A stretch of DNA of 64,000 nt from Myxococcota bacterium (GTDB taxonomy: Bacteria > Myxococcota > XYA12-FULL-58-9 > JALHOP01): the NCBI GenBank assembly GCA_022842935.1, contig JALHOP010000008.1, forward strand, positions 1 to 64,000. The letters are read 5' to 3'. A program made the translations under genes and the position numbers. Shown piece by piece: positions 567-47,071 of this stretch. The notes beneath the pieces were generated by a model. The model worked only from the letters and a program-made list of their open reading frames with translations. It was not told the DNA's origin and made no database searches. The number at the start of each line of letters is the position of its first letter. The stretch's first letter is position 1.

Positions 567-600
567 CGAATAGCCGCTTTTCTCCGGAAGCGGCTATTCG
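567..600 (+). terminator. Strong hairpin after the frameshifted gene
   Basis: A perfect 13-bp inverted repeat (567-579 pairs with 588-600, 8-base loop) starts 22 bases after the stop at 544. It has no clear T-tract, so a rho-independent terminator is only likely. It separates the small gene from the operon promoter at 666. Confidence 0.5.
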
Positions 601-665: not shown

Positions 666-694
666 TTGACGTACCGGCCATGCTTTGCTAACTT
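666..694 (+). promoter_or_regulatory. Candidate sigma-70 promoter for the ubiquitin-like island operon
   Basis: TTGACG at 666-671 and TAACTT at 689-694 are separated by 17 bp, about 22 bases before the ATG at 717. An alternative -10 is TATGAT at 694-699, but its spacing to this -35 is too long. A strong Shine-Dalgarno, GGAGGA, follows at 707-712. All genes from 717 to 6854 run in the same direction with small gaps, so this could drive the whole island. Confidence 0.4.
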
Positions 695-716: not shown

Positions 717-1169
717 ATGTCAGACGGAAGAACCCATCGAGCTATCGGCACCCTCGTCGGAGGGGGCTTCGCCCTCGCCAAGGCCCAGCAGCAGCGCCCC
801 GAGCATCTCCTCCTGGAGGTCCTTGGCGGGCTGATCGCCGGCAACCTGGGGGCCCGTCTGCCCGACGTGTTCGATCCGCCGATGCACCCGGGGCACCGGA
901 GCGTCGCGCACGGGATCGCGCCTGTCGCGGCTGTGGGCCGCGCGGCCGTTCGCGGGCTCGATGGTGCTCAAGTCCGGCTTCGCGCTGAAGCCGATCGTCG
1001 TACAGCGCTTCGCGCGTCCGCCACCACGCCCCTGCAGCGTCTCTGGCAGGCGGTCCTCGAGATCCTCTGCCGGCTTGGTGCCGGCGCGCTGGCCGGGCTC
1101 CTCGGCGGTTACGGCTCGCACGTCGCGCTCGATGCGCTCACCCCCGCCGGCCTACCTCTTCTCGCGTGA
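717..1169 (+). CDS. YdjM-like (DUF457) membrane metal-dependent hydrolase
   Basis: The 150-residue product resembles the YdjM/DUF457 family of inner-membrane 'metal-dependent hydrolases'. It has an early histidine (THRAIGT, residues 6-12), the HPGHRSVAHG cluster and a late GYGSHVALDALTPAG motif, matching the family's HR..T/SH and G.lSH..lD..TP.G signatures, with hydrophobic stretches near residues 11-45 and 112-132. It is shorter than typical members. Start choice is supported by GGAGGA six bases upstream. It is the first gene of the island and lies 8 bp before the regulator gene. E. coli YdjM is LexA-controlled, but no LexA box was seen here. Its role in the island is unknown. Confidence 0.65.
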   Translation: MSDGRTHRAIGTLVGGGFALAKAQQQRPEHLLLEVLGGLIAGNLGARLPDVFDPPMHPGHRSVAHGIAPVAAVGRAAVRGLDGAQVRLRAEADRRTALRASATTPLQRLWQAVLEILCRLGAGALAGLLGGYGSHVALDALTPAGLPLLA

Positions 1170-1177
1170 GGCCATCG

Positions 1178-2425
1178 ATGACTGTCACCCAGGAAGAACT
1201 CGGACGCCGAATTCGCGCCGCACGTGAAGCGTGCCGCATGACCCAAGACGACGCCGCGAAGCACATCGGCGTCTCCCGACCGACCTTTGTCCAGATCGAG
1301 GCGGGCAAGCGCTCGGTCTCCAGCCTTGAGCTCGACAAGCTCGCGTACCTGTTCGGCCGCGACATCCGCGAGTTCGTGGCAAACGAGTTCCAGCAGGAAG
1401 ACTCGCTCACCGCACTGTTCCGCGCGCAGGCCTCCGTCGTTGGCGAGCCCGAGGTTCTCGACAAGCTTCGCGAGTGCATGGCGCTCGGGCGCGAGCTGAC
1501 GAACCTCGAGCGGCTCGTCGGCATCGACCGCGATCTGTCGGCGGTCGCCTCGTACCCGTTCCCGGTGCCGAAGGCGCGCTGGGAGGCGGTGCAGCAGGGC
1601 CAACGCCTCGCTGAGGAGGAACGTCGTCGTCTAGGCTTGGGCTTCGCGCCGCTCCCCGACATGACCGAGCTACTCGAGTCGCAGGGCGTCCGCACGGCGA
1701 TGGTCGAGCTGCCGAACGACGTCTCGGGCCTGACGCTCAGCGACCGGAAGGTGGGCCTCTTCGTCGTCGCGAACGACGTGCATCACTACCTGCGTCGCCG
1801 CTTCTCGTTTGCACACGAGTACGCCCACGTCGTCGCCGATCGTGATCGCTCCGGGCTCATCAGCCAGACCTCGGCGCGCGACGATCTCATCGAGGTTCGC
1901 GCCAACGCGTTCGCCGCGAACTTCCTCATGCCGGAGGACGGCGTCCGTCAGTTCGTCAGTGGCCTTGGCAAGGGCAAGCCGAGCCGCGTCTTCGCTGAAG
2001 TGTTCGACGAGGAAGCGGCGCTCAACGTCGAAGGGCGCTCGGAGCCAGGCACCCAGACGATCCAGCTCTACGACGTCGTGCTGCTCGCGCACCATTTCGG
2101 CGTGAGCCGGATCTCCGCGCTGTACCGGCTGCGCAACCTGCGCCTGCTCTCCGAGGCCGAGTTCAACCACCTCAAGGCGCTCGATGACGAGGGCAAGGGT
2201 AAGCCACTCGCGATGGCGCTCGGTCTCTCCGAGCCCGATCACGCGGAGATGCGCAGTGAGTTCAAGCACCGCTTCCTCGGGCTGGCGCTCGAGGCCTACC
2301 GTCGCGACGAGATCTCACGCGGCAAGCTCCGCGAGCTCGTGGCGATGGTCGGCCTTAGCGTCGACGACCTGGACCAACTCCTCGATGACGCCGGTCTCGA
2401 CGGCGAGGACGACCCCGCGCCGTGA
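1178..2425 (+). CDS. XRE-family HTH regulator with ImmA/IrrE metalloprotease domain
   Basis: The N-terminal XRE helix-turn-helix (about residues 5-60, containing MTQDDAAKHIGVSRPTFVQI) is followed by a zinc-peptidase domain with HEYAH at residues 213-217 and a downstream EVRANAFAANFLMP helix carrying the third ligand, typical of ImmA/IrrE. Such proteins bind DNA and cleave a repressor or antitoxin partner in response to stress or phage signals. ATG 1178 is chosen; an in-frame GTG at 1166 would overlap the previous stop. The stop overlaps the PIN gene's GTG start, so the two are translationally coupled, suggesting a toxin-antitoxin-like or sensor unit attached to the ubiquitin-like cassette. 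Confidence 0.85.
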   Translation: MTVTQEELGRRIRAAREACRMTQDDAAKHIGVSRPTFVQIEAGKRSVSSLELDKLAYLFGRDIREFVANEFQQEDSLTALFRAQASVVGEPEVLDKLRECMALGRELTNLERLVGIDRDLSAVASYPFPVPKARWEAVQQGQRLAEEERRRLGLGFAPLPDMTELLESQGVRTAMVELPNDVSGLTLSDRKVGLFVVANDVHHYLRRRFSFAHEYAHVVADRDRSGLISQTSARDDLIEVRANAFAANFLMPEDGVRQFVSGLGKGKPSRVFAEVFDEEAALNVEGRSEPGTQTIQLYDVVLLAHHFGVSRISALYRLRNLRLLSEAEFNHLKALDDEGKGKPLAMALGLSEPDHAEMRSEFKHRFLGLALEAYRRDEISRGKLRELVAMVGLSVDDLDQLLDDAGLDGEDDPAP

Positions 2426-2931
2426 GCACACCGATCCTCCGCATCGTCGTGACCGACGCCAACGTGCTCATCAACCTGATGCACGTGTCGCGACTTGGCC
2501 TGCTGGCCAAGATCCCCAACCACGAGTTCGTGGTGCCGGAGCACGTGCGCGAGGAGATCACGATCGCCGAGCAGCGGACGACGCTCGACGCCGCGGTCAC
2601 CGCGGGCTGGCTGAAGATCGAGGTCATCGATGACATCGGCGCCATCACGGTCTTCACGGAGCTCATCGCTCACATCGGTCGTGGCGAAGCGGCGTGCATC
2701 GCGATCGCCGCGCAGAAGGGCTGGCTCATCGCCTCCGACGAGAAGAAGCGGTTCCTCCGCGAGGCCACAGCGCGCGTTGGTGTCGGCCACGTCCTCACCA
2801 CCGTCGACGTGTTCGTCCTCGCGATCAAGGCGGGGCTCCTCACCATCGAGGAAGCCGACGCGGACAAGATCACGCTCGAAGGTAGGCGGTTCAAGGTGTC
2901 GTTCGGCTCGTATCGGGAACTCGTGAAGTAG
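2422..2931 (+). CDS. PIN-domain nuclease-like protein
   Basis: The 169-residue protein has the PIN fold pattern: VVTDANVLINL (D12), a central EAACIAIA helix (E89) and WLIASDEK (D106), giving the usual acidic triad for Mg-dependent RNase activity. GTG start; it overlaps the end of the HTH/ImmA-IrrE gene by 4 bp and is followed 28 bp later by the ubiquitin-like gene. PIN proteins are usually VapC-type RNase toxins. The upstream protein could be the antitoxin or regulator, though it is far larger than a VapB. Whether this arm acts as the effector of the ubiquitin-like system is inference. Confidence 0.8.
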   Translation: MSTPILRIVVTDANVLINLMHVSRLGLLAKIPNHEFVVPEHVREEITIAEQRTTLDAAVTAGWLKIEVIDDIGAITVFTELIAHIGRGEAACIAIAAQKGWLIASDEKKRFLREATARVGVGHVLTTVDVFVLAIKAGLLTIEEADADKITLEGRRFKVSFGSYRELVK

Positions 2932-2959
2932 CCCCACCCGGGGAGAAGGAGCAGTCCAC

Positions 2960-3280
2960 ATGTCCACGGAAATGGAAGCTGAAGTCGACGAGATCGAGAT
3001 CGAGGTTCACACCCAGAAGGTCAGCGGGAAGGAGAAGCCGCCCAAGGCGAAGAAGTACATCATCCGCGTCGACAAGACGAAGTTCACCGTCGAGGTCTCG
3101 TCGATGACTGGGCGCGAGATCCTCTCCCTCGCCGGCAAGACGCCGGTCGAGCAGTACAAGCTGACCCAGAAGATGCATGGCGGCGCGGCGAAGACGATCA
3201 ACCTCGACGACCCGGTCGACTTCACGGAGCCCGGCGTTGAGCGCTTCATGACGCTGAAGCGTGACCAGACCGAGGGCTGA
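2960..3280 (+). CDS. Ubiquitin-like protein, multiubiquitin (Bub-type) family
   Basis: The 106-residue product matches the bacterial multiubiquitin family: a single beta-grasp unit reading KYIIRVDKTKFTVEVSSMTG, then GREILSLAGKTPVEQYKL, ending in RFMTLKRDQTEG with a C-terminal glycine. Only one beta-grasp copy is present, preceded by about 28 acidic/lysine-rich residues. It would be adenylated by the E1 encoded two genes downstream. Shine-Dalgarno-like GGAGAAGGAG precedes ATG 2960. It sits directly before the E2-like gene with one base between them, so co-expression is expected. The target of conjugation is unknown. Confidence 0.9.
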   Translation: MSTEMEAEVDEIEIEVHTQKVSGKEKPPKAKKYIIRVDKTKFTVEVSSMTGREILSLAGKTPVEQYKLTQKMHGGAAKTINLDDPVDFTEPGVERFMTLKRDQTEG

Positions 3281-3281
3281 C

Positions 3282-3683
3282 ATGCGCCGGCAGTTCGAGC
3301 TCCCTTCGTTCGACACGCAGTACCTGGAGACGACCGGCCTCGAGTGGGAGACCATCGTCGAGGGCGCGGGGCGGTGGCTGCTTCTCCACGGTCGTCCCCT
3401 ACCCAACGGGTACAACGTCGAGCGCGCCATCGTCGCGCTGCAGATCCCGCCCGGGTATCCCGACGCGCAGATCGACATGGTGTACTTCTTCCCCGCACTC
3501 GCGAGGAAGGACAATCAGGCCATCGGTGCGACCCAAAGCGCGCAGGCTCTCGACGGAAAGTCGTTCCAGCGTTGGTCTCGACACCGCACCGCTGCTGCCC
3601 CGTGGCGGCCGGGCGAGGACGACATCTCGAGCCATCTCGTGCTCGTCGACGACTGGCTCGAACGCGAGTTCAAGATCCGATGA
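3282..3683 (+). CDS. E2-like protein, prokaryotic E2 family E, lacking cysteine
   Basis: The 133-residue protein has the Prok-E2_E pattern: LPNGYNVERAIVALQIPPGYPDAQIDMVYF, then FQRWSRHR, WRPGEDDISSHL and VDDWLEREF. The fold is the UBC/E2 core expected to carry the ubiquitin-like protein from E1. Reading the whole sequence I find no cysteine, so a canonical thioester cannot form on it. Serines and histidine around residues 82-88 (SFQRWSRH) sit near where an E2 active site would lie. It begins one base after the ubiquitin-like stop and overlaps the JAB-E1 gene by 4 bp (ATGA). Confidence 0.85.
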   Translation: MRRQFELPSFDTQYLETTGLEWETIVEGAGRWLLLHGRPLPNGYNVERAIVALQIPPGYPDAQIDMVYFFPALARKDNQAIGATQSAQALDGKSFQRWSRHRTAAAPWRPGEDDISSHLVLVDDWLEREFKIR

Positions 3684-5083
3684 AGAACCGTCCAGCTCAT
3701 CTCCGGCTCGCGGGCGTTCACGCCGAGGAACTTCATCGTCACCTGTTTCCCGGTGACGGCAAGGAAGCCGTGGCGTTCGCGCTCTGCGGTCGTCACCACG
3801 CCACCGAACACGACGTCCTACTCGTGCAGGAAGTGCTTCCGGTCCCCTACGCAGACTGTCCGGTCCGCAAGGCCGACCAAATCACCTGGCGCACGGAGGC
3901 CATCGAACCGCTCCTGCTTCGGGCGTCTCGGGCCACGCCGAAGCTTGGGGTCGTGAAGTTCCACAGCCACCCCACGGGTTACGAAGACTTCTCGCGCACC
4001 GACGACATCTCGGACCGGGACCTCTTCCCCTCGATCTACGGGTGGGTCGACGACGACGGACCTCACGCCAGCGTCGTCATGCTCCCAGACCGCCGCATGT
4101 TCGGTCGCAGCATCGACAGTGAGAATCGCTTCCATCGGCTTCAGCAGATCCTCGTCGCTGACCACGACATCGGCCTCTTTGGGACGATCGCTTCGGCAGC
4201 GCTGCCGGCGCACGCGGAGCGCCACGCGCAGGTCTTTGGCGACAGTACGACCAGCCGCCTTCGGCAGCTCGCCATCGGGGTGGTCGGATGCTCTGGCACG
4301 GGCAGCTTCGTCATCGAGATGCTGGCCCGCCTCGGCGTGAGAAAGCTGGTGTTGGTTGACCCTGACCGAGTCGAGTACAGGAACCTCAACCGGATCGTCG
4401 GCACGACCGCCGCTGACGCGGCGACGAGCAGGAGCAAGGTCGAGGCAATTGGCGAGCACGTGGCCCGCCTCGGCCTCGACACCCGCGTCGAGATCGTGCC
4501 GCGCGAGTTGGCTTCCGTAGAGGCCGTTCGCGCGCTGGCAGGTTGCGACGTGCTCTTCGGCTGCATGGACAGCCACGACGGTCGCCGCACCCTGAACCGG
4601 CTCGCGTCCTTCTACGTGCTGCCGTACTTCGACTGCGGCGTCGGCTTGGCTGCCGACGGCACCGGCAACATCGACGACGTCACAGCGGCGGCGCACTACG
4701 TTCAGCCAGGGCGATCGACTTTGCTCGCGCGCAGAGTGATCTCGCAGAAGCGGGCCGACGCCGAAGCGATGGCCCGCCGCGATCCTGAGCAGTACCGAGC
4801 GCTTCACGCGGAGAAATACATCGAGGGAGCAGAGATCGACAGCCCCGCCGTTATCAGCGTCAACGCGCTCGCAGCCTCTCTGGTAGTGAACGAGTTCCTT
4901 GCGCGACTACACCCGTTCCGCCAGACGGCAAACGCGGACTACGCGTCCGTCCGTCTGAAGTACGACGCGATGCTGCTCGACGTGGAGCAAGAGACGGATG
5001 CCACCCCCCTTCGCAGGGCGCTCGGGAGGGGCGACGTCCAACCGCTGCTCGACTTGCCCGAGCTGTCGTCGGTGGGAGCGTAG
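3680..5083 (+). CDS. JAB/JAMM isopeptidase fused to ThiF-type E1 activating enzyme
   Basis: The 467-residue fusion begins with a JAMM metalloprotease: E29, then HSHPTG (H95, H97), S105 and D108 in exact HxHx7Sx2D spacing, so the zinc site looks intact. From about residue 195 it is a ThiF/E1 adenylation domain: VVGCSGTGSFV nucleotide loop, LVLVDPDRVEYRNLNR, and CMDSHDGR (C295, D297). The HYVQPGRSTLL segment, where ThiF/MoeB-type enzymes usually carry the acceptor cysteine, has S346/T347 instead and no cysteine follows. Predicted roles are activation of the ubiquitin-like protein and its removal or processing. It overlaps the E2 gene by 4 bp. Confidence 0.9.
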   Translation: MKNRPAHLRLAGVHAEELHRHLFPGDGKEAVAFALCGRHHATEHDVLLVQEVLPVPYADCPVRKADQITWRTEAIEPLLLRASRATPKLGVVKFHSHPTGYEDFSRTDDISDRDLFPSIYGWVDDDGPHASVVMLPDRRMFGRSIDSENRFHRLQQILVADHDIGLFGTIASAALPAHAERHAQVFGDSTTSRLRQLAIGVVGCSGTGSFVIEMLARLGVRKLVLVDPDRVEYRNLNRIVGTTAADAATSRSKVEAIGEHVARLGLDTRVEIVPRELASVEAVRALAGCDVLFGCMDSHDGRRTLNRLASFYVLPYFDCGVGLAADGTGNIDDVTAAAHYVQPGRSTLLARRVISQKRADAEAMARRDPEQYRALHAEKYIEGAEIDSPAVISVNALAASLVVNEFLARLHPFRQTANADYASVRLKYDAMLLDVEQETDATPLRRALGRGDVQPLLDLPELSSVGA

Positions 5084-5087
5084 AGAA

Positions 5088-5537
5088 ATGCGTTGGCTGC
5101 GTCGGCTCTGGGCTCGGTTCTCCGAGTGGATTCGCTCCCTGCGCTTGCCGGGAGGAGTGAGCAACGACGACTCGGCTTCCGCGCCCGCGCCGCAGCTACC
5201 ACCGGCGGCACCACCACCCCAGTATCGCGTCGTCCACCTTACCGACGATCCCGACGATCTGCTGCCGGAGACTCTCTACGCCATCGGGGAGAACGGCCAC
5301 CTCTGGCACGTCTCGCTCGTGTGCCCCTGCGGCTGCGGCGCAACGATCGCGCTCAACGTGCTCCCCGACGACTCGCCGCGCTGGCGGCTGTACGAGAGCG
5401 CCGACGGTCCGACGCTGTCTCCGTCGGTCTGGAGAACTACGGGCTGCCGGAGTCACTTCATCCTTCGAAGGGGCCACGTCATTTGGTGCCATGGTCGACG
5501 ACCGGACGACGTGAGCGAGACCGAGTACAGCGCATAG
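5088..5537 (+). CDS. DUF6527 (BubE-type) protein of the ubiquitin-like cassette
   Basis: The 149-residue product has the DUF6527 signature: LVCPCGCGATIALNV, WRLYESADGPTLSPSVW, then CRSHFILRRGHVIWC. This family accompanies multiubiquitin/E2/E1 cassettes; recent work on Bub operons, as I recall, treats it as a peptidase acting on the ubiquitin-like protein. The N terminus (MRWLRRLWARFSEWIRSLR) is a basic amphipathic helix followed by a proline/alanine linker to about residue 47, which could bind membrane or a partner. It starts 4 bases after the E1 stop, completing the cassette. The CPCGCG cluster and conserved Ser/His are the obvious candidates for function. Confidence 0.85.
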   Translation: MRWLRRLWARFSEWIRSLRLPGGVSNDDSASAPAPQLPPAAPPPQYRVVHLTDDPDDLLPETLYAIGENGHLWHVSLVCPCGCGATIALNVLPDDSPRWRLYESADGPTLSPSVWRTTGCRSHFILRRGHVIWCHGRRPDDVSETEYSA

Positions 5538-5588
5538 GACCGAACCGCACCAACTCCAGCCCTGAGCCCCGCCGCGTAGGATGCTCAA

Positions 5589-6854
5589 ATGGCCATCACC
5601 CGCGAGACCCTCTACGAGGAGGTCTGGGCCGAGCCGATGACGAAGGTCGCGGCTCGGTACGCCGTCTCGTCGAGCTTCCTCGCGCGGGTCTGCGAGCGGC
5701 TGAACGTCCCGCGGCCGTCTCGCGGCTACTGGGCGCAACTCGATGTCGGGAAGGCCAGCGCGAAGCCCGCGCTGCCGGAGGCGCGCCCGGGCGACGAGCT
5801 GGAGTGGTCGCGCGAGGGTGAGCCGCGCCGCGTCCCCCGCGCACTGCCGCAGCCGCCTTCCGAGAACGAGCCCCCGCCGCGGCGCCGTCGACGCGAGCGG
5901 CCGTCGCGACACGAACTGATCGTCGGCGCACGCGAGCACTTCGAGGGCGCAAAGGAGTCCGACAGCGGGTACCTGCGGCCGCTCAAGAAGCGGCTCGTCG
6001 ACGCGTTCGTGACGAAGGCGACGCTGGACCACGCGCTGGACGTAGCAAACGCACTGTTCTTGGCGCTCGAGGATCGCGGGCACCGGGTCACCTTTGCGCC
6101 CTTGGACCAGCACCTGCGCCGGCCCGAGGTCGACGAGCGCACCGAGGGAGGAGGCGAGCGGTACAGCTACGGACGCTGGGGCCCGGATCGCCCGACGGTC
6201 GTCTACGTCGGCTCCGTCGCAATCGGCCTGACGATGTTCGAGCTCAGCGAAGAGGTGGAGGTCCGATACGTGGACGGCAAGTACGTTCGCGTCGCCGACG
6301 TCCCGCAGCCAGCCACAAGGCGGCGGCGCTGGGCACCGCCAGAGCACGTCTGGACGCACAAGCGTGACATGCCGAGCGGGCGCCTGTGCCTCCGGGCTTC
6401 ATCCCCGTACGCGCGCGCCAAGTGGGAGAAGCAGTGGCGAGAAGGCAGGGGCTCGGGGGGCTCGGACCTTTCGTCGAAGGTGCCTCAGATCGTCCGCGAG
6501 CTGGAGACCGAGGCTGCAACCATCGCCGCGCTCGTTGCCGAGGGAGAACGGCAAGCCGAGATCGAGCGGCAGAAGTGGGAGGCGCAGCAGGCAAAGTGGC
6601 GTGCAGAGGAAGCGGAGCGTCGGCGCATCCAGAACACGAAGGAGAGCAGGGAGGAGCTCTTCGCCATCATCGAGGCGTGGGGCGTGGCGAAGCAGATCGA
6701 GGGCTTCTTCGAGGACGCACAGCGCCGCGCGGCCGAGCTCGACGAGGACGCAAGGGACGCGATCCGGGACCGGCTCAAGCTAGCACGCGCGCTCCTGGGC
6801 GATGTCGACGCTCTCCGGCGGTTCCGCGCCTGGCGGTCACCCGAAGAGCGGTAG
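5589..6854 (+). CDS. Hypothetical protein with DNA-binding-like N terminus
   Basis: The first 55 residues (ITRETLYEEVWAEPMTKVAA ... VPRPSRGYWAQLDVGKA) match a widespread, poorly named family seen in genomic islands and defence loci, whose N terminus resembles a helix-turn-helix. A proline/arginine linker (about 60-110) follows, then a mixed domain (about 115-290) and a long charged coiled-coil (about 300-410). There are no catalytic motifs I can name. It starts 51 bp after the DUF6527 stop on the same strand, so it may be the last gene of the operon. A role as regulator or scaffold for the island is a guess. Confidence 0.6.
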   Translation: MAITRETLYEEVWAEPMTKVAARYAVSSSFLARVCERLNVPRPSRGYWAQLDVGKASAKPALPEARPGDELEWSREGEPRRVPRALPQPPSENEPPPRRRRRERPSRHELIVGAREHFEGAKESDSGYLRPLKKRLVDAFVTKATLDHALDVANALFLALEDRGHRVTFAPLDQHLRRPEVDERTEGGGERYSYGRWGPDRPTVVYVGSVAIGLTMFELSEEVEVRYVDGKYVRVADVPQPATRRRRWAPPEHVWTHKRDMPSGRLCLRASSPYARAKWEKQWREGRGSGGSDLSSKVPQIVRELETEAATIAALVAEGERQAEIERQKWEAQQAKWRAEEAERRRIQNTKESREELFAIIEAWGVAKQIEGFFEDAQRRAAELDEDARDAIRDRLKLARALLGDVDALRRFRAWRSPEER

Positions 6855-7274: not shown

Positions 7275-9767
7275 CTACTCCTCTCGAAGCAGCGTCGCCG
7301 GCTTCTGGCCCAGAGCCCGCCAAGTTCCGAAAGCGCCGAGCACCAGCGAGGTTGCGGTACCAAGCAGGAGAGTCACCGCCAGTGCCGCTGGCTCAACTTG
7401 CCACGGCATCTTCATGAGTCCTGCGACCACGCCATAAGCGGTGGCCGAGCCCAAGAGGCTCGCAACCAGCGCGGTACCGAAACCAGTGAAGGCGTGTTCG
7501 GCGATGAACGTGAGTGCAGCCGTGGCGCGCGTCGCGCCAACGACCTTGAAGATGACCGCATCATGGACGCGCTGGGTGTGCGCCGCGAGCACGCCACCGA
7601 CGAGCACCAATACGCCCATCAGCAACGTCAATCCCGCCGCCGAGCGCACCGCCGTGGCAATGCCCGCCATGATGGACTGCACGCGCTCGAGAGCATCGCG
7701 CACCCGAACTGTCGAAACGTGCGGGAAGTCCTTGGCGATGCGCGAGAAGACGTTCTCTTCGAACGACGAGTCGACGTGCGCGGTCGCGAGGACGGTGTGC
7801 GGCGCGCCAACGAGCGACGCGGGCGAGAGGATGACCGCGAAGTTGATACTCATGCCGCGCCAATCGATATCGCGAAGACTCGCGACGGTCGCCGTGAGCT
7901 CACGTCCCAAAATGCTAAAGGTGAGAGTGTCACCGCGTACAACGCCGAGGTCACGTGCCAGCTCGGCGTCGAACGAGACGAGCGGAGGTCCGGCGTAGTC
8001 CGCGGCCCACCACGCGCCCTCGGCGATGCGGGTTCCCTCGGGCGGTGTCGCGGCATAAGTGATACCGCGGTCACTCTCGATGGCCGAGCGTGAGCGTTCC
8101 GGAACCTCGAGCGTGTCGACCGACGCGCCGCGTACGGCGACGATGCGACCGCGCAGCATCGGAACGCTGTCGACACGCGCAACGCCAGGAAGAGCGGTGA
8201 GCTCACGCGTAAATGCGTCCGCTTCGGCGGCCTGGACATCGAGAAAGAAGAAGGACGGTGGCTTGAGACTGCGCGCGTCGCCGAGCTCACGGGCTAGGTT
8301 CTTCTCGACAACCGCGATCGCAGATAGAACGGTGAGCGCGAGCCCCAGCGTCAAGACCGTGCGCTGGGTGCCAACCCCGTTTCGGACGATACCAGCGAGC
8401 CCAACTCTGAGCGCCGAGGGCCGCATACGACGGACCAGCAGCGACGCTCCCCGTCGGAAGACCTGCGCGACCAGCGCGAAGACGCCAAACGCAAGAGCGA
8501 CCGCGCCGACGAACTCGATGGCGATGACGAGGTCGCGTGCGCTCGCGAGTACGAGGGCGACCAAGGCGATGACTCCCCCGATGGTTGCCGCGAGCATTCC
8601 CCCAGAAGGCGTCGCGCGGGCCTCCGTCACGCGCGAACGGAATAGCGTCGCTGGCTTCACGGCGGCGACGCGCGCCAGCGGCCAAAGGGCGAACACCAGC
8701 GCGGTCACGACGCCGAAGGCCGCCGCCTGCGCAAGTGGCTCCCAGTACACGCCCGAACGAGCCGCAACGGGCAAGAGCCGCGCGACGAGCGGCAACAGTG
8801 CGGCGGGAGCCAGTGCTCCGACAACCAGGCCGGCCGCGATGCCGGCGAGCCCAAGCACCGCGGTCATCGACAGATAGACGGCGGTCACGGTTCGGGTCGA
8901 CGCGCCAACACACTTGAGCGTCGCGATGGTGGTGAGCTTGCTCTCGATGAAGGTCGACACGGCGTTGCTCACCCCAACGCCACCGACGAGGAGCGCCGTC
9001 AGCCCGACCAGCGTCAGAAACTGCGTGACACGGTCGATGAAGCGCTTCACGCCGGGGGTGGCTTGTCCGTGTGTGACGACACGCACACCGGAGAGCGTCT
9101 CGCGTAGCGATTCTGCCAAATTCTCGGCGTCGACCACCTCAGACAGCCGCAAGCGATAGCTATAGCGGACAAGGCTCCCCGGCTGGATGAGCCCTGTGGC
9201 GCGCACCGCATCATGCGAGACCATGACACGCGGGCCGAGCTCGAAGCCGCGAATGCCGCGATCTGGTTCGCGGGCAAGGACGCCGCGTACAGTGAGCGTC
9301 GCGTCTCCGACCACGAGGGCGTCGCCAGGCCCTACCCCAAGCCGCGCTGCCAGCGTCGGGTCGATGAGAGCGCCGCCAAGCTCGACCGTGTCGCGCAGGG
9401 CCCCCGCAGGCTCGGTCTCGACGTCGCCGTAGAGCGGATAAGCCCCATCGACGCCCTTCAGCTCAACGAGGGCGCTAGTTTCCCCGTGGCGCGCCATAGC
9501 GCGAAGGTCAACCGTGTGTGACAGAACACGGCCGGTGGCGATGTTCGTAAGCAGCGTGCCGTCGAGTGGCGTGGTGGTGGAGGAGATCTCGAGGTCCCCG
9601 CCGAGAAGAGCGCGCGCGTCCGCGCGAAGACCAGCGATGAGAGCCGCGCGCGTCGAGCCAATTGCGGCTATCGCGGCCACTCCCAGCGCCAGGCAGATCA
9701 CCAATAGGCGAAACGGTCGCACGCCGCCGCGCAGCTCCCGAAGCGTGAGTCGCCAGACGACGCTCAC
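7275..9767 (-). CDS. ybbP: ABC transporter permease, YbbP family
   Basis: The 830-residue protein has an N-terminal transmembrane helix (LLVICLALGVAAIAAI) followed by a periplasmic MacB-like region that includes ARLGVGPGDALVVGDATLTV, then two FtsX-type membrane blocks (around residues 260-480 and 700-825), as in YbbP. With YbbA it forms an ABC complex of the lipid/peptide-export type; the exact substrate is not established. Its GTG start overlaps the ybbA stop (GTGA), so translation is coupled. The ybbA-ybbP pair with tesA divergent is an arrangement also known from E. coli. Confidence 0.85.
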   Translation of the reverse strand: MSVVWRLTLRELRGGVRPFRLLVICLALGVAAIAAIGSTRAALIAGLRADARALLGGDLEISSTTTPLDGTLLTNIATGRVLSHTVDLRAMARHGETSALVELKGVDGAYPLYGDVETEPAGALRDTVELGGALIDPTLAARLGVGPGDALVVGDATLTVRGVLAREPDRGIRGFELGPRVMVSHDAVRATGLIQPGSLVRYSYRLRLSEVVDAENLAESLRETLSGVRVVTHGQATPGVKRFIDRVTQFLTLVGLTALLVGGVGVSNAVSTFIESKLTTIATLKCVGASTRTVTAVYLSMTAVLGLAGIAAGLVVGALAPAALLPLVARLLPVAARSGVYWEPLAQAAAFGVVTALVFALWPLARVAAVKPATLFRSRVTEARATPSGGMLAATIGGVIALVALVLASARDLVIAIEFVGAVALAFGVFALVAQVFRRGASLLVRRMRPSALRVGLAGIVRNGVGTQRTVLTLGLALTVLSAIAVVEKNLARELGDARSLKPPSFFFLDVQAAEADAFTRELTALPGVARVDSVPMLRGRIVAVRGASVDTLEVPERSRSAIESDRGITYAATPPEGTRIAEGAWWAADYAGPPLVSFDAELARDLGVVRGDTLTFSILGRELTATVASLRDIDWRGMSINFAVILSPASLVGAPHTVLATAHVDSSFEENVFSRIAKDFPHVSTVRVRDALERVQSIMAGIATAVRSAAGLTLLMGVLVLVGGVLAAHTQRVHDAVIFKVVGATRATAALTFIAEHAFTGFGTALVASLLGSATAYGVVAGLMKMPWQVEPAALAVTLLLGTATSLVLGAFGTWRALGQKPATLLREE

Positions 9768-46297: not shown

Positions 46298-47071
46298 ATG
46301 GAACCAAGCGAGGGCTCCGTCCGCTTTGGCGGTATTGAACGACTCTACGGCCCCGAGGCCGCAGCACGTATCGCCCGGGGCCACGTTTGCGTCATTGGCC
46401 TTGGTGGGGTCGGTTCGTGGGTCGTCGAGGCCTTGGCCCGAACCGGCGTCGGTACGTTGACTCTCGTCGACCTCGACGAGATCTGCGCGAGCAACGTCAA
46501 CCGCCAGCTCCACGCCCTCTCGCAAACCATCGGCAAAGGCAAAGCATCGACGCTCGGCGAGCGCGTCCGCGCCATCAACCCCGAGGTCCGCGTCAACGTC
46601 ATCGAGGACTTCTTCACCGAGTCGACGGCGGAGGACATCCTTGCCCCTGGCTACGATGTGGTGATCGACTGCATCGACAACTTCACCAACAAGCTCATCA
46701 TGATCAAGGCGTGCCGCCGCAAACGCCAGCGCCTCATCGTGGTGGGTGGCGCCGGCGGTCGACGGGACCCAACGCAAATCAAGGTCACCGACATCACCAA
46801 GGCGCAGGGCGACAAGATGCTCGCGATGCTACGCAAGAAGCTCCGGCAGAAACACGACTTCCCACGCAAAGGCACCTGGAGCATTCGCTGCGTCTACAGC
46901 GACGAGGTCCCGGTGCTACCCGAGGGGATGGCCTGCTCACCCGATGGCCTCGATTGCGAGACCGGGTACGGTGCGGTCACCTATGTGACCGGCACCTTCG
47001 GATTCCTGGCGAGTGCCGCGGCCGTCGAGTGGATGCTCATCCCGAAGACCGCAGCACCAGGGCAACCGTAG
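46298..47071 (+). CDS. tcdA: tRNA threonylcarbamoyladenosine dehydratase (TcdA/CsdL)
   Basis: The 257-residue ThiF-like protein has RFGGIERLYGPEAAARIARG, VIGLGGVGSWVVEALARTGV, LVDLDEICASNVNRQLHALS, VVIDCIDNFTNKL and SDEVPVLPEG, diagnostic of TcdA, which dehydrates t6A37 in tRNA to cyclic ct6A. It should not be confused with the E1 of the ubiquitin-like cassette, although both share the ThiF fold. ATG 46298 lies about 70 bp from the divergent M16 start. Confidence 0.9.
   Translation: MEPSEGSVRFGGIERLYGPEAAARIARGHVCVIGLGGVGSWVVEALARTGVGTLTLVDLDEICASNVNRQLHALSQTIGKGKASTLGERVRAINPEVRVNVIEDFFTESTAEDILAPGYDVVIDCIDNFTNKLIMIKACRRKRQRLIVVGGAGGRRDPTQIKVTDITKAQGDKMLAMLRKKLRQKHDFPRKGTWSIRCVYSDEVPVLPEGMACSPDGLDCETGYGAVTYVTGTFGFLASAAAVEWMLIPKTAAPGQP

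Follow-up and report, generated by a model that had tools for sequence, protein, structure and literature searches.

A fused HTH-ImmA/PIN module as the probable controller of a Bub-type operon for ubiquitin-like conjugation in a Myxococcota bacterium

In the Myxococcota genome analyzed here, a module of the toxin-antitoxin type (positions 1178-2931), which consists of a fused HTH-ImmA protein and a PIN-domain protein, appears to have taken over the control of a Bub-type conjugation operon and to release the PIN protein and the Bub proteins together; we assign this reading a rough probability of 0.6. The HTH-ImmA/PIN unit probably switches the ubiquitin-like pathway on, and gene neighborhoods suggest that units of this kind came to lie ahead of Bub pathways several separate times in unrelated bacteria. 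The features of the DNA that point to this reading are the gene order, the tight junctions, the conservation in a Polyangiaceae contig (L053) and the intact active sites, together with a common promoter-like motif, a recurrent linkage to Bub and a common site in divergent relatives.

Results

Gene content and layout of the operon

The window, i.e., the whole 64,000-nucleotide stretch of DNA that was analyzed, forms the start of a 325-kb contig and belongs to a genome of 6.28 Mb. It contains a run of seven genes on the forward strand, encoding YdjM-like, HTH-ImmA, PIN, ubiquitin-like, E2-like, JAB-E1, and DUF6527 proteins, that are separated by small gaps or overlaps (Table 1). Bub-type operons are characterized by a multiubiquitin-family protein, an E2, an E1 together with a JAB domain, and a DUF6527 protein in a single run. 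All four were identified here with Pfam scores over the cut-off, and the same set is present in L053. The JAB-E1 protein is the sole full-length copy in the 6.28-Mb genome. A second ThiF-type stretch in the window (46340-46693), 32% identical to the E1 domain, probably represents an adenylyltransferase gene of its own. Since cysteine is absent from the E2-like protein, an E2 intermediate, if any is formed, would need a different residue.

Table 1. Features of the conserved run and of the region upstream of it
Feature	Position	Strand	Basis or remark
Dyad GAATAGCCGCTT-N8-AAGCGGCTATTC	568..599		Upstream of the promoter-like motif; one occurrence in the 6.28-Mb genome
Promoter-like motif TTGACG-N17-TAACTT, core TTGACN15TGCTAAC (666-692)	666..694	+	Motif search
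YdjM-like protein (PF04307)	717..1169	+	Pfam 3.1e-9, over cut-off
Fused HTH (Xre) + ImmA/IrrE metalloprotease, predicted antitoxin/repressor	1178..2425	+	Pfam, PADLOC, model
PIN-domain protein, predicted nuclease toxin	2422..2931	+	PADLOC, family profile, AlphaFold2 model
Single multiubiquitin-family ubiquitin-like protein	2960..3280	+	PF14452 5.6e-17
E2-like protein, prokaryotic E2 family E	3282..3683	+	PF14462 8.2e-41
JAB peptidase fused to ThiF-type E1	3680..5083	+	ThiF 3.1e-30, Prok-JAB 2.3e-6
DUF6527 protein, closes the conserved run	5088..5537	+	PF20137 1.6e-22

A preliminary description of this DNA had reported a 4-bp overlap between the HTH-ImmA and PIN genes and a distance of 28 bp from PIN to the ubiquitin-like gene. 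Both were confirmed, the overlap at 2422-2425, with a GTG start for PIN, and the gap between the PIN end and the ubiquitin-like ATG at 2960. Of the stretch 717-6854, for which a check for a single transcript was suggested there, the upstream part with the YdjM-like gene does belong to the conserved run; the gene at 5589-6854 has no counterpart in L053 and was rejected as a module member, leaving a conserved run of 717-5537. A GTG at 1166 was also rejected as the HTH-ImmA start, as the aligned start in L053 favors 1178.

The HTH-ImmA and PIN proteins

The HTH-ImmA protein is encoded by a single fused ORF (415 amino acids) with Pfam matches to Peptidase_M78 (8.2e-14) and HTH_31 (2.1e-10). The best PADLOC models were those of RmrA (2.2e-26), matched over profile positions 5-233 of 363, and capP was matched as well (8.2e-16). 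The protease active site, described earlier as intact, was indeed found to be so, since H213-E214-x-x-H217 (HEYAH) and E239 are invariant in a 17-row alignment. The structure model, with a pLDDT of 78 and a low-confidence stretch between the domains (residues 71-88), matches IrrE/PprI (3dti, 3dte), and its first ~60 residues match HTH proteins, including the N-terminal domain of CapH.

In a Pfam scan the PIN protein stayed under the cut-off, and in PADLOC it matched PDC-S70 models only (7.9e-12), with no match to any RmrT model. It was assigned to the PIN fold because the family profile matches solved PIN proteins (3ix7, 4.6e-7; 1o4w, 2.9e-6; VapC 7by2, 0.008) and because the confident AlphaFold2 model (pLDDT 94.1) matches VapC and Nob1 structures. 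The predicted acidic triad (D12, E89, D106) is present, and E45, a fourth acidic residue not named earlier, does not vary in a 15-row alignment.

Conservation in the Polyangiaceae contig

L053 was found to possess the identical seven-gene order, with the YdjM-like gene leading. Identities to the window proteins are 57% for YdjM, 80% for HTH-ImmA, 65% for PIN, 82% (over 79 aligned residues) for the ubiquitin-like protein, 66% for E2, 67% for E1, and 63% for DUF6527. Both 4-bp overlaps (HTH-ImmA/PIN and E2/E1) are equal in the two contigs, and the gap from PIN to the ubiquitin-like gene is 22 bp in L053 versus 28 bp in the window. The pN/pS values for the pair of sequences are 0.47 (YdjM), 0.19 (HTH-ImmA), 0.37 (PIN), 0.36 (ubiquitin-like protein), 0.37 (E2), 0.33 (E1), and 0.42 (DUF6527), so that the purifying selection on PIN resembles that on the Bub genes. 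Given that L053 repeats the order with like junctions and low pN/pS values, the arrangement in the window is not a product of chance.

Among the 107 loci L026-L132, YdjM-like genes at HTH-ImmA or Bub loci were seen in L053, L118 (5383-5829), and L120 (2840-3187). A further one, 47% identical to that of the window, lies directly ahead of HTH-ImmA in a locus without Bub (L276, 2574-3023).

The promoter-like motif and the dyad upstream of the run

The core of the promoter-like motif, TTGACN15TGCTAAC, has a single match in the window (0.01 expected) and a single one in the whole genome. Elsewhere among 296 loci it was found only in L053, L036 (and the overlapping copy L021), and L276, which are the loci of the closest HTH-ImmA relatives of the window, and the form TTGACN14-15TGCTAAC lies upstream of all four nearest relatives in the window subclade, the window counted. 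The -10 element is weak and the generic promoter scan did not pick the motif up. A common operator was sought for the window subclade, and nothing but the promoter-like motif was common. In L036 the motif is directly ahead of HTH-ImmA-PIN, in a locus that ends 253 bases past PIN, and in L276 it precedes YdjM-HTH-ImmA, with no Bub in the 10 kb covered and with PIN represented by a 24-residue end match only. Genome searches gave no multiubiquitin match in the genome of either locus (G005 and G009, respectively), and the motif therefore belongs to the regulator unit. In the window and in L053, the Bub genes sit downstream of the promoter-like motif of this unit.

The dyad upstream of the motif is recognizable in L053 by its right arm and a near-match of its left arm, at a comparable distance ahead of the YdjM start. 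It is a candidate operator, terminator, or attachment site.

Recurrent linkage of the pair to Bub loci

The best 80 of 245 genome-contig relatives of an 11-protein E1 alignment, chosen by E1 similarity alone, served as Bub loci. Within 3.5 kb upstream of E1, 14 of them carry a fused HTH-ImmA, 24 ImmA plus a separate HTH, 11 ImmA only, 1 HTH only, and 30 neither, where the ImmA counts are lower bounds (46/80 by the first profile, which missed L054, and 49/80 by a looser cut). For 9 loci less than 4 kb of upstream sequence is available, and among the 71 with at least 4 kb the same classes number 12 (11 with PIN), 24, 9, 1, and 25. L093 and L117, which looked fused by length, were not counted as such, as the HTH profile did not class either as fused.

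PIN was found in 13 of the 14 fused loci versus none of the 66 other Bub loci (Fisher's test over the 80 loci, 4e-14, a value that ignores the kinship among counted loci such as L040/L078/L089 and L061/L062/L085). Every one of the 13 PIN matches falls inside the 3.5-kb stretches upstream of E1 (269,791 bases in total), and the remaining 903,787 bases contain none, although the profile, iterated on matches from the same loci, may favor those loci. The link between a protease/nuclease pair and ubiquitin-like operons that had been proposed earlier is thus borne out in 13 of 80 Bub loci, and it arose several times. The 14 fused loci span Myxococcota, Pseudomonadota, Cyanobacteriota, Bacillota, and Bacteroidota. 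As to orientation, among the 13 loci with PIN, L053 has the pair in the same direction as Bub, like the window, and the other 12 as well as the plasmid locus L040 are divergent. Starred branches force at least 7 changes of the fused-plus-PIN combination in the E1 tree, which was built from 95 rows by a quick method, and in the HTH-ImmA tree (56 rows after thinning of viral copies from 74) the Bub-plus-PIN label needs at least 6; both trees have long branches and were made without bootstrap. The window PIN and those of the divergent loci share only about 14-22% identity, so that these are parallel pairings rather than one inherited unit.

HExxH is kept and PIN is present in 12 of the fused loci. 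In the remaining two the protease is dead: in L067, CELAH replaces HExxH and PIN lacks the last acidic residue, and L112, without HExxH, is the only fused ORF without PIN. These two fusions count for the main reading. In the cyanobacterial PINs of L061, L062, and L085, D12 is replaced by N and the last acid is lost, and the partner protease has HExxH. At an Abditibacteriota plasmid Bub locus, a sigma-70 region 2 protein is encoded divergently upstream, replacing HTH-ImmA (L042, 3158-3757).

A common site in the divergent loci

GTTTACAA was identified upstream of E1/Bub in 11 of the 12 divergent fused-plus-PIN loci (all except L070) versus 1 of 69 other genome loci, and shuffles gave a mean of 0.69 of 12 and a maximum of 3. 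In alphaproteobacteria and cyanobacteria, the space between the HTH-ImmA and ubiquitin-like genes contains GTTTACAAA...TTTGTAAAC palindromes, and the divergent loci of Bacillota and Bacteroidota have half-sites, single or spaced. Ahead of stand-alone viral HTH-ImmA genes, GTTTACAA was present in 5 of 16 members of the related clade but in none of the 24 members of the window clade and none of the 15 other genes. This restriction implies that the site tracks the HTH-ImmA protein, for which GTTTACAA would look like a candidate operator. The palindrome alone is unspecific, since 63 stretches in viral contigs contain it, none near ImmA, PIN, or E1, and it is therefore meaningful only beside the gene. 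As GTTTACAA is absent from the window, L053, L034, L051, and L067 (the last being among the 69), the operator argument extends to the window by analogy only.

The pair in the absence of Bub

The earlier proposal of a single module is not supported in that form, as the pair is not specific to Bub. Of 80 viral-contig loci found using the HTH-ImmA alignment, 34 have PIN beside HTH-ImmA, and a Bub E1 was found in none; PIN is present in 18 of the 20 best, and the stretches of the other two (L134, L145) end at or just past the HTH-ImmA gene. No close relatives of the window E1, or of the window PIN, were found when viral contigs were searched for them. Relatives of the window PIN occur in 10 plasmid records. 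Four distinct plasmid regions were examined; a divergent ubiquitin-like operon is found nearby in that of Methylomonas (L051) and is lacking in the other three. In the phylum survey, fused HTH-ImmA relatives were detected at 55 places in 43 of 195 genomes (E <= 1e-20), and only two of these places, the window and G056, adjoin multiubiquitin; at 20 further places, PIN was present in 10 and E1 in none within the 3.5-10 kb examined. Since related pairs without Bub are found on phage contigs, plasmids, and genomes, the unit is autonomous, and judged by its neighborhoods HTH-ImmA/PIN is an independent toxin-antitoxin-type module and not Bub-specific.

The preliminary description had also named a conjunction that would speak against its reading, namely, that the pair occurs mostly independently of ubiquitin-like genes, with a terminator or promoter between 2931 and 2960. 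The former holds for the window subfamily, as the close relatives of the window pair are mostly without Bub; the latter does not, since a generic scan found no terminator-like or promoter-like site in 2931-2960.

Several loci contain further genes at or near such pairs. In G009, a second HTH-ImmA/PIN pair is present as fragments (L039, about 7988-8365; L276, 4354-4425), ~15 kb from a whole HTH-ImmA gene, as if a rearrangement had removed PIN. In a genome of the Myxococcota phylum, the ORF that follows a fused HTH-ImmA (L281, 1932-2414) resembles by eye a MazF-type toxin, in keeping with partner swapping. DUF2188/DUF1508 genes are annotated near plasmid HTH-ImmA/PIN pairs (L050, 3366-3590; L052, 5816-6037; L051, 3277-3447), and a short ORF after HTH-ImmA in L276 (about 4450) looks similar by eye. 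The available part of PMC13373217 reports YegP genes beside CapKS.

Discussion

Proposed mechanism

The mechanism that we infer comprises repression, antitoxin activity, a trigger, a cleavage site, PIN toxicity, and an RNA target of PIN. HTH-ImmA would be repressor and antitoxin in one: its dimer would repress the promoter at ~666-694, which would drive the YdjM, HTH-ImmA, PIN, and Bub genes, and it would keep PIN inactive. The zinc protease would be activated by a stress signal, on the CapP analogy single-stranded DNA arising from phage or DNA damage, and would then cut HTH-ImmA, perhaps in the flexible stretch 71-88. This cleavage would free the promoter and PIN together, and RNA cleavage by PIN and ubiquitin-like tagging would form a joint response. 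Control of Bub by HTH-ImmA is proposed because operon and promoter motif are common to both in the window and because the divergent relatives follow rules of site and position.

Damaged yet retained PINs, such as the cyanobacterial ones, fit a purely nucleolytic role poorly and suggest a noncatalytic, perhaps co-repressor, function. This leads to a more tentative extension, to which we give somewhat less than even odds, namely, that fused HTH-ImmA and PIN form a Bub switch of a distinct kind, which was recruited repeatedly and in which PIN is an obligate repressor partner and not only a toxin. PIN binding would then tune repression, and one cleavage would free the nuclease and start ubiquitin-like tagging. 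The damaged PINs kept in the cyanobacterial and Bradyrhizobium Bub loci, as well as the joint loss of protease and PIN, would follow from it.

Alternative explanations

The strongest competitor of joint control, although an unlikely one, is that the pair is a selfish addiction module parked beside Bub, which kills cells that lose the locus and does not regulate Bub. The pair does occur without Bub on viral contigs, on plasmids, and in most Myxococcota genomes, and a transposase-like ORF lies just upstream of the operon in L053, the nearest relative. However, a parked module would not be expected to keep the strict position directly upstream of Bub, with 0 of 13 PINs elsewhere, to have a common site between the divergent genes, or, in the window, to form one operon with Bub; nor would PIN be expected to accompany fused proteins and never the split HTH/ImmA pairs in the equal position.

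Improbable in our view is a guard or fail-safe role, in which the intact Bub pathway holds PIN off and a phage that disables Bub releases it. There is a precedent in CreTA, which guards CRISPR-Cas, and a toxin pair is repeatedly linked here to one defense-like operon, but no Bub RNA or protein is known as an antitoxin in this setting, and the PIN active sites have decayed in several Bub-linked loci, which a guard would not tolerate.

Two further possibilities are highly improbable. HTH-ImmA or PIN might be a substrate of the ubiquitin-like pathway, with tagging setting its level, which is favored by gene proximity only and is opposed by the existence of the pair as a unit in genomes without Bub and by the 67 of 80 Bub loci without the PIN pair; an effect of conjugation on how stable or active the protease or nuclease is, as proposed earlier, found no support, and HTH-based transcription control is better supported. 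Equally remote is a coincidence of two mobile units that gather in the same islands: both are found on plasmids and near other defense-like genes, but the rules of position and architecture (PIN only upstream of E1 and only with fused HTH-ImmA), the minimum of 7 separate changes in the E1 tree, and the conserved seven-gene order argue against it.

Significance

The joint-control reading joins toxin-antitoxin modules and bacterial ubiquitin-like conjugation, two fields that have been kept apart so far. If it is true, a single protease switch releases both protein tagging and a nuclease that stops the cell, and the trigger and purpose of Bub pathways, for which no phage protection has been shown so far according to the available part of PMC13373217, become directly testable. 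Over several phyla in the sample, fused HTH-ImmA is accompanied by PIN and split HTH + ImmA is not, a rule that predicts partner and mechanism from architecture alone. A literature search that covered work other than the papers defining Bub gave no report of the fused-plus-PIN Bub form, of its repeated recruitment, or of the same-direction seven-gene form, and searches for DUF6527 with ubiquitin-like proteins and for PIN beside Bub gave no paper.

Comparison with known systems

The window unit resembles several described systems. ImmA-domain proteins are antitoxins of RosmerTA and are associated with PIN-like domains, as stated in the part of PMC10440598 that was available. Like the window, RosmerTA has an HTH-ImmA antitoxin-type protein beside a toxin-type gene, and RmrA was the best PADLOC model; however, the RmrA match is partial, there is no RmrT toxin match, and the window unit is linked to a ubiquitin-like operon, a word ("ubiquitin") with 0 occurrences in PMC10440598. 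Fusions of COG2856 and Xre beside PIN genes, with 42 and 60 cases in a table, were reported by Makarova 2009 (PMC2701414). They share with the window a fused Xre-Zn protease gene that directly adjoins a PIN gene but, in the accessible sections of that work, are proposed as a separate three-part toxin-antitoxin system, with no mention of ubiquitin-like genes. VapKSC/CapKS, as presented in the available portion of PMC13373217, likewise provides one DNA-damage switch for Bub-type operons or for a PIN toxin. It differs in using a kinase and a STAS protein and in that its PIN form stands alone, whereas in the window a protease would place PIN and Bub under one switch. VapBC shares the predicted PIN toxin fold, VapC structures being among the model matches, but the window has no small VapB-type antitoxin, and the partner of PIN is the 415-residue HTH-ImmA protein, with no gene in between.

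A further parallel is CapH and CapP, which reportedly control CBASS, as is said to have been described by Lau in 2022. Such HTH and ImmA pairs control adjacent immune operons upon DNA damage, and of 544 Bub operons, 219 come with CapW or CapH+CapP (PMC13373217, in its available part). CapH+CapP resemble the window in combining an Xre-type HTH with an ImmA-type HExxH protease ahead of operons of the immune type, among them Bub. Control of Bub by HTH plus ImmA has thus already been published in split form; CapH and CapP are two separate proteins, whereas the window encodes a single polypeptide, paired with PIN and encoded on the same strand as Bub.
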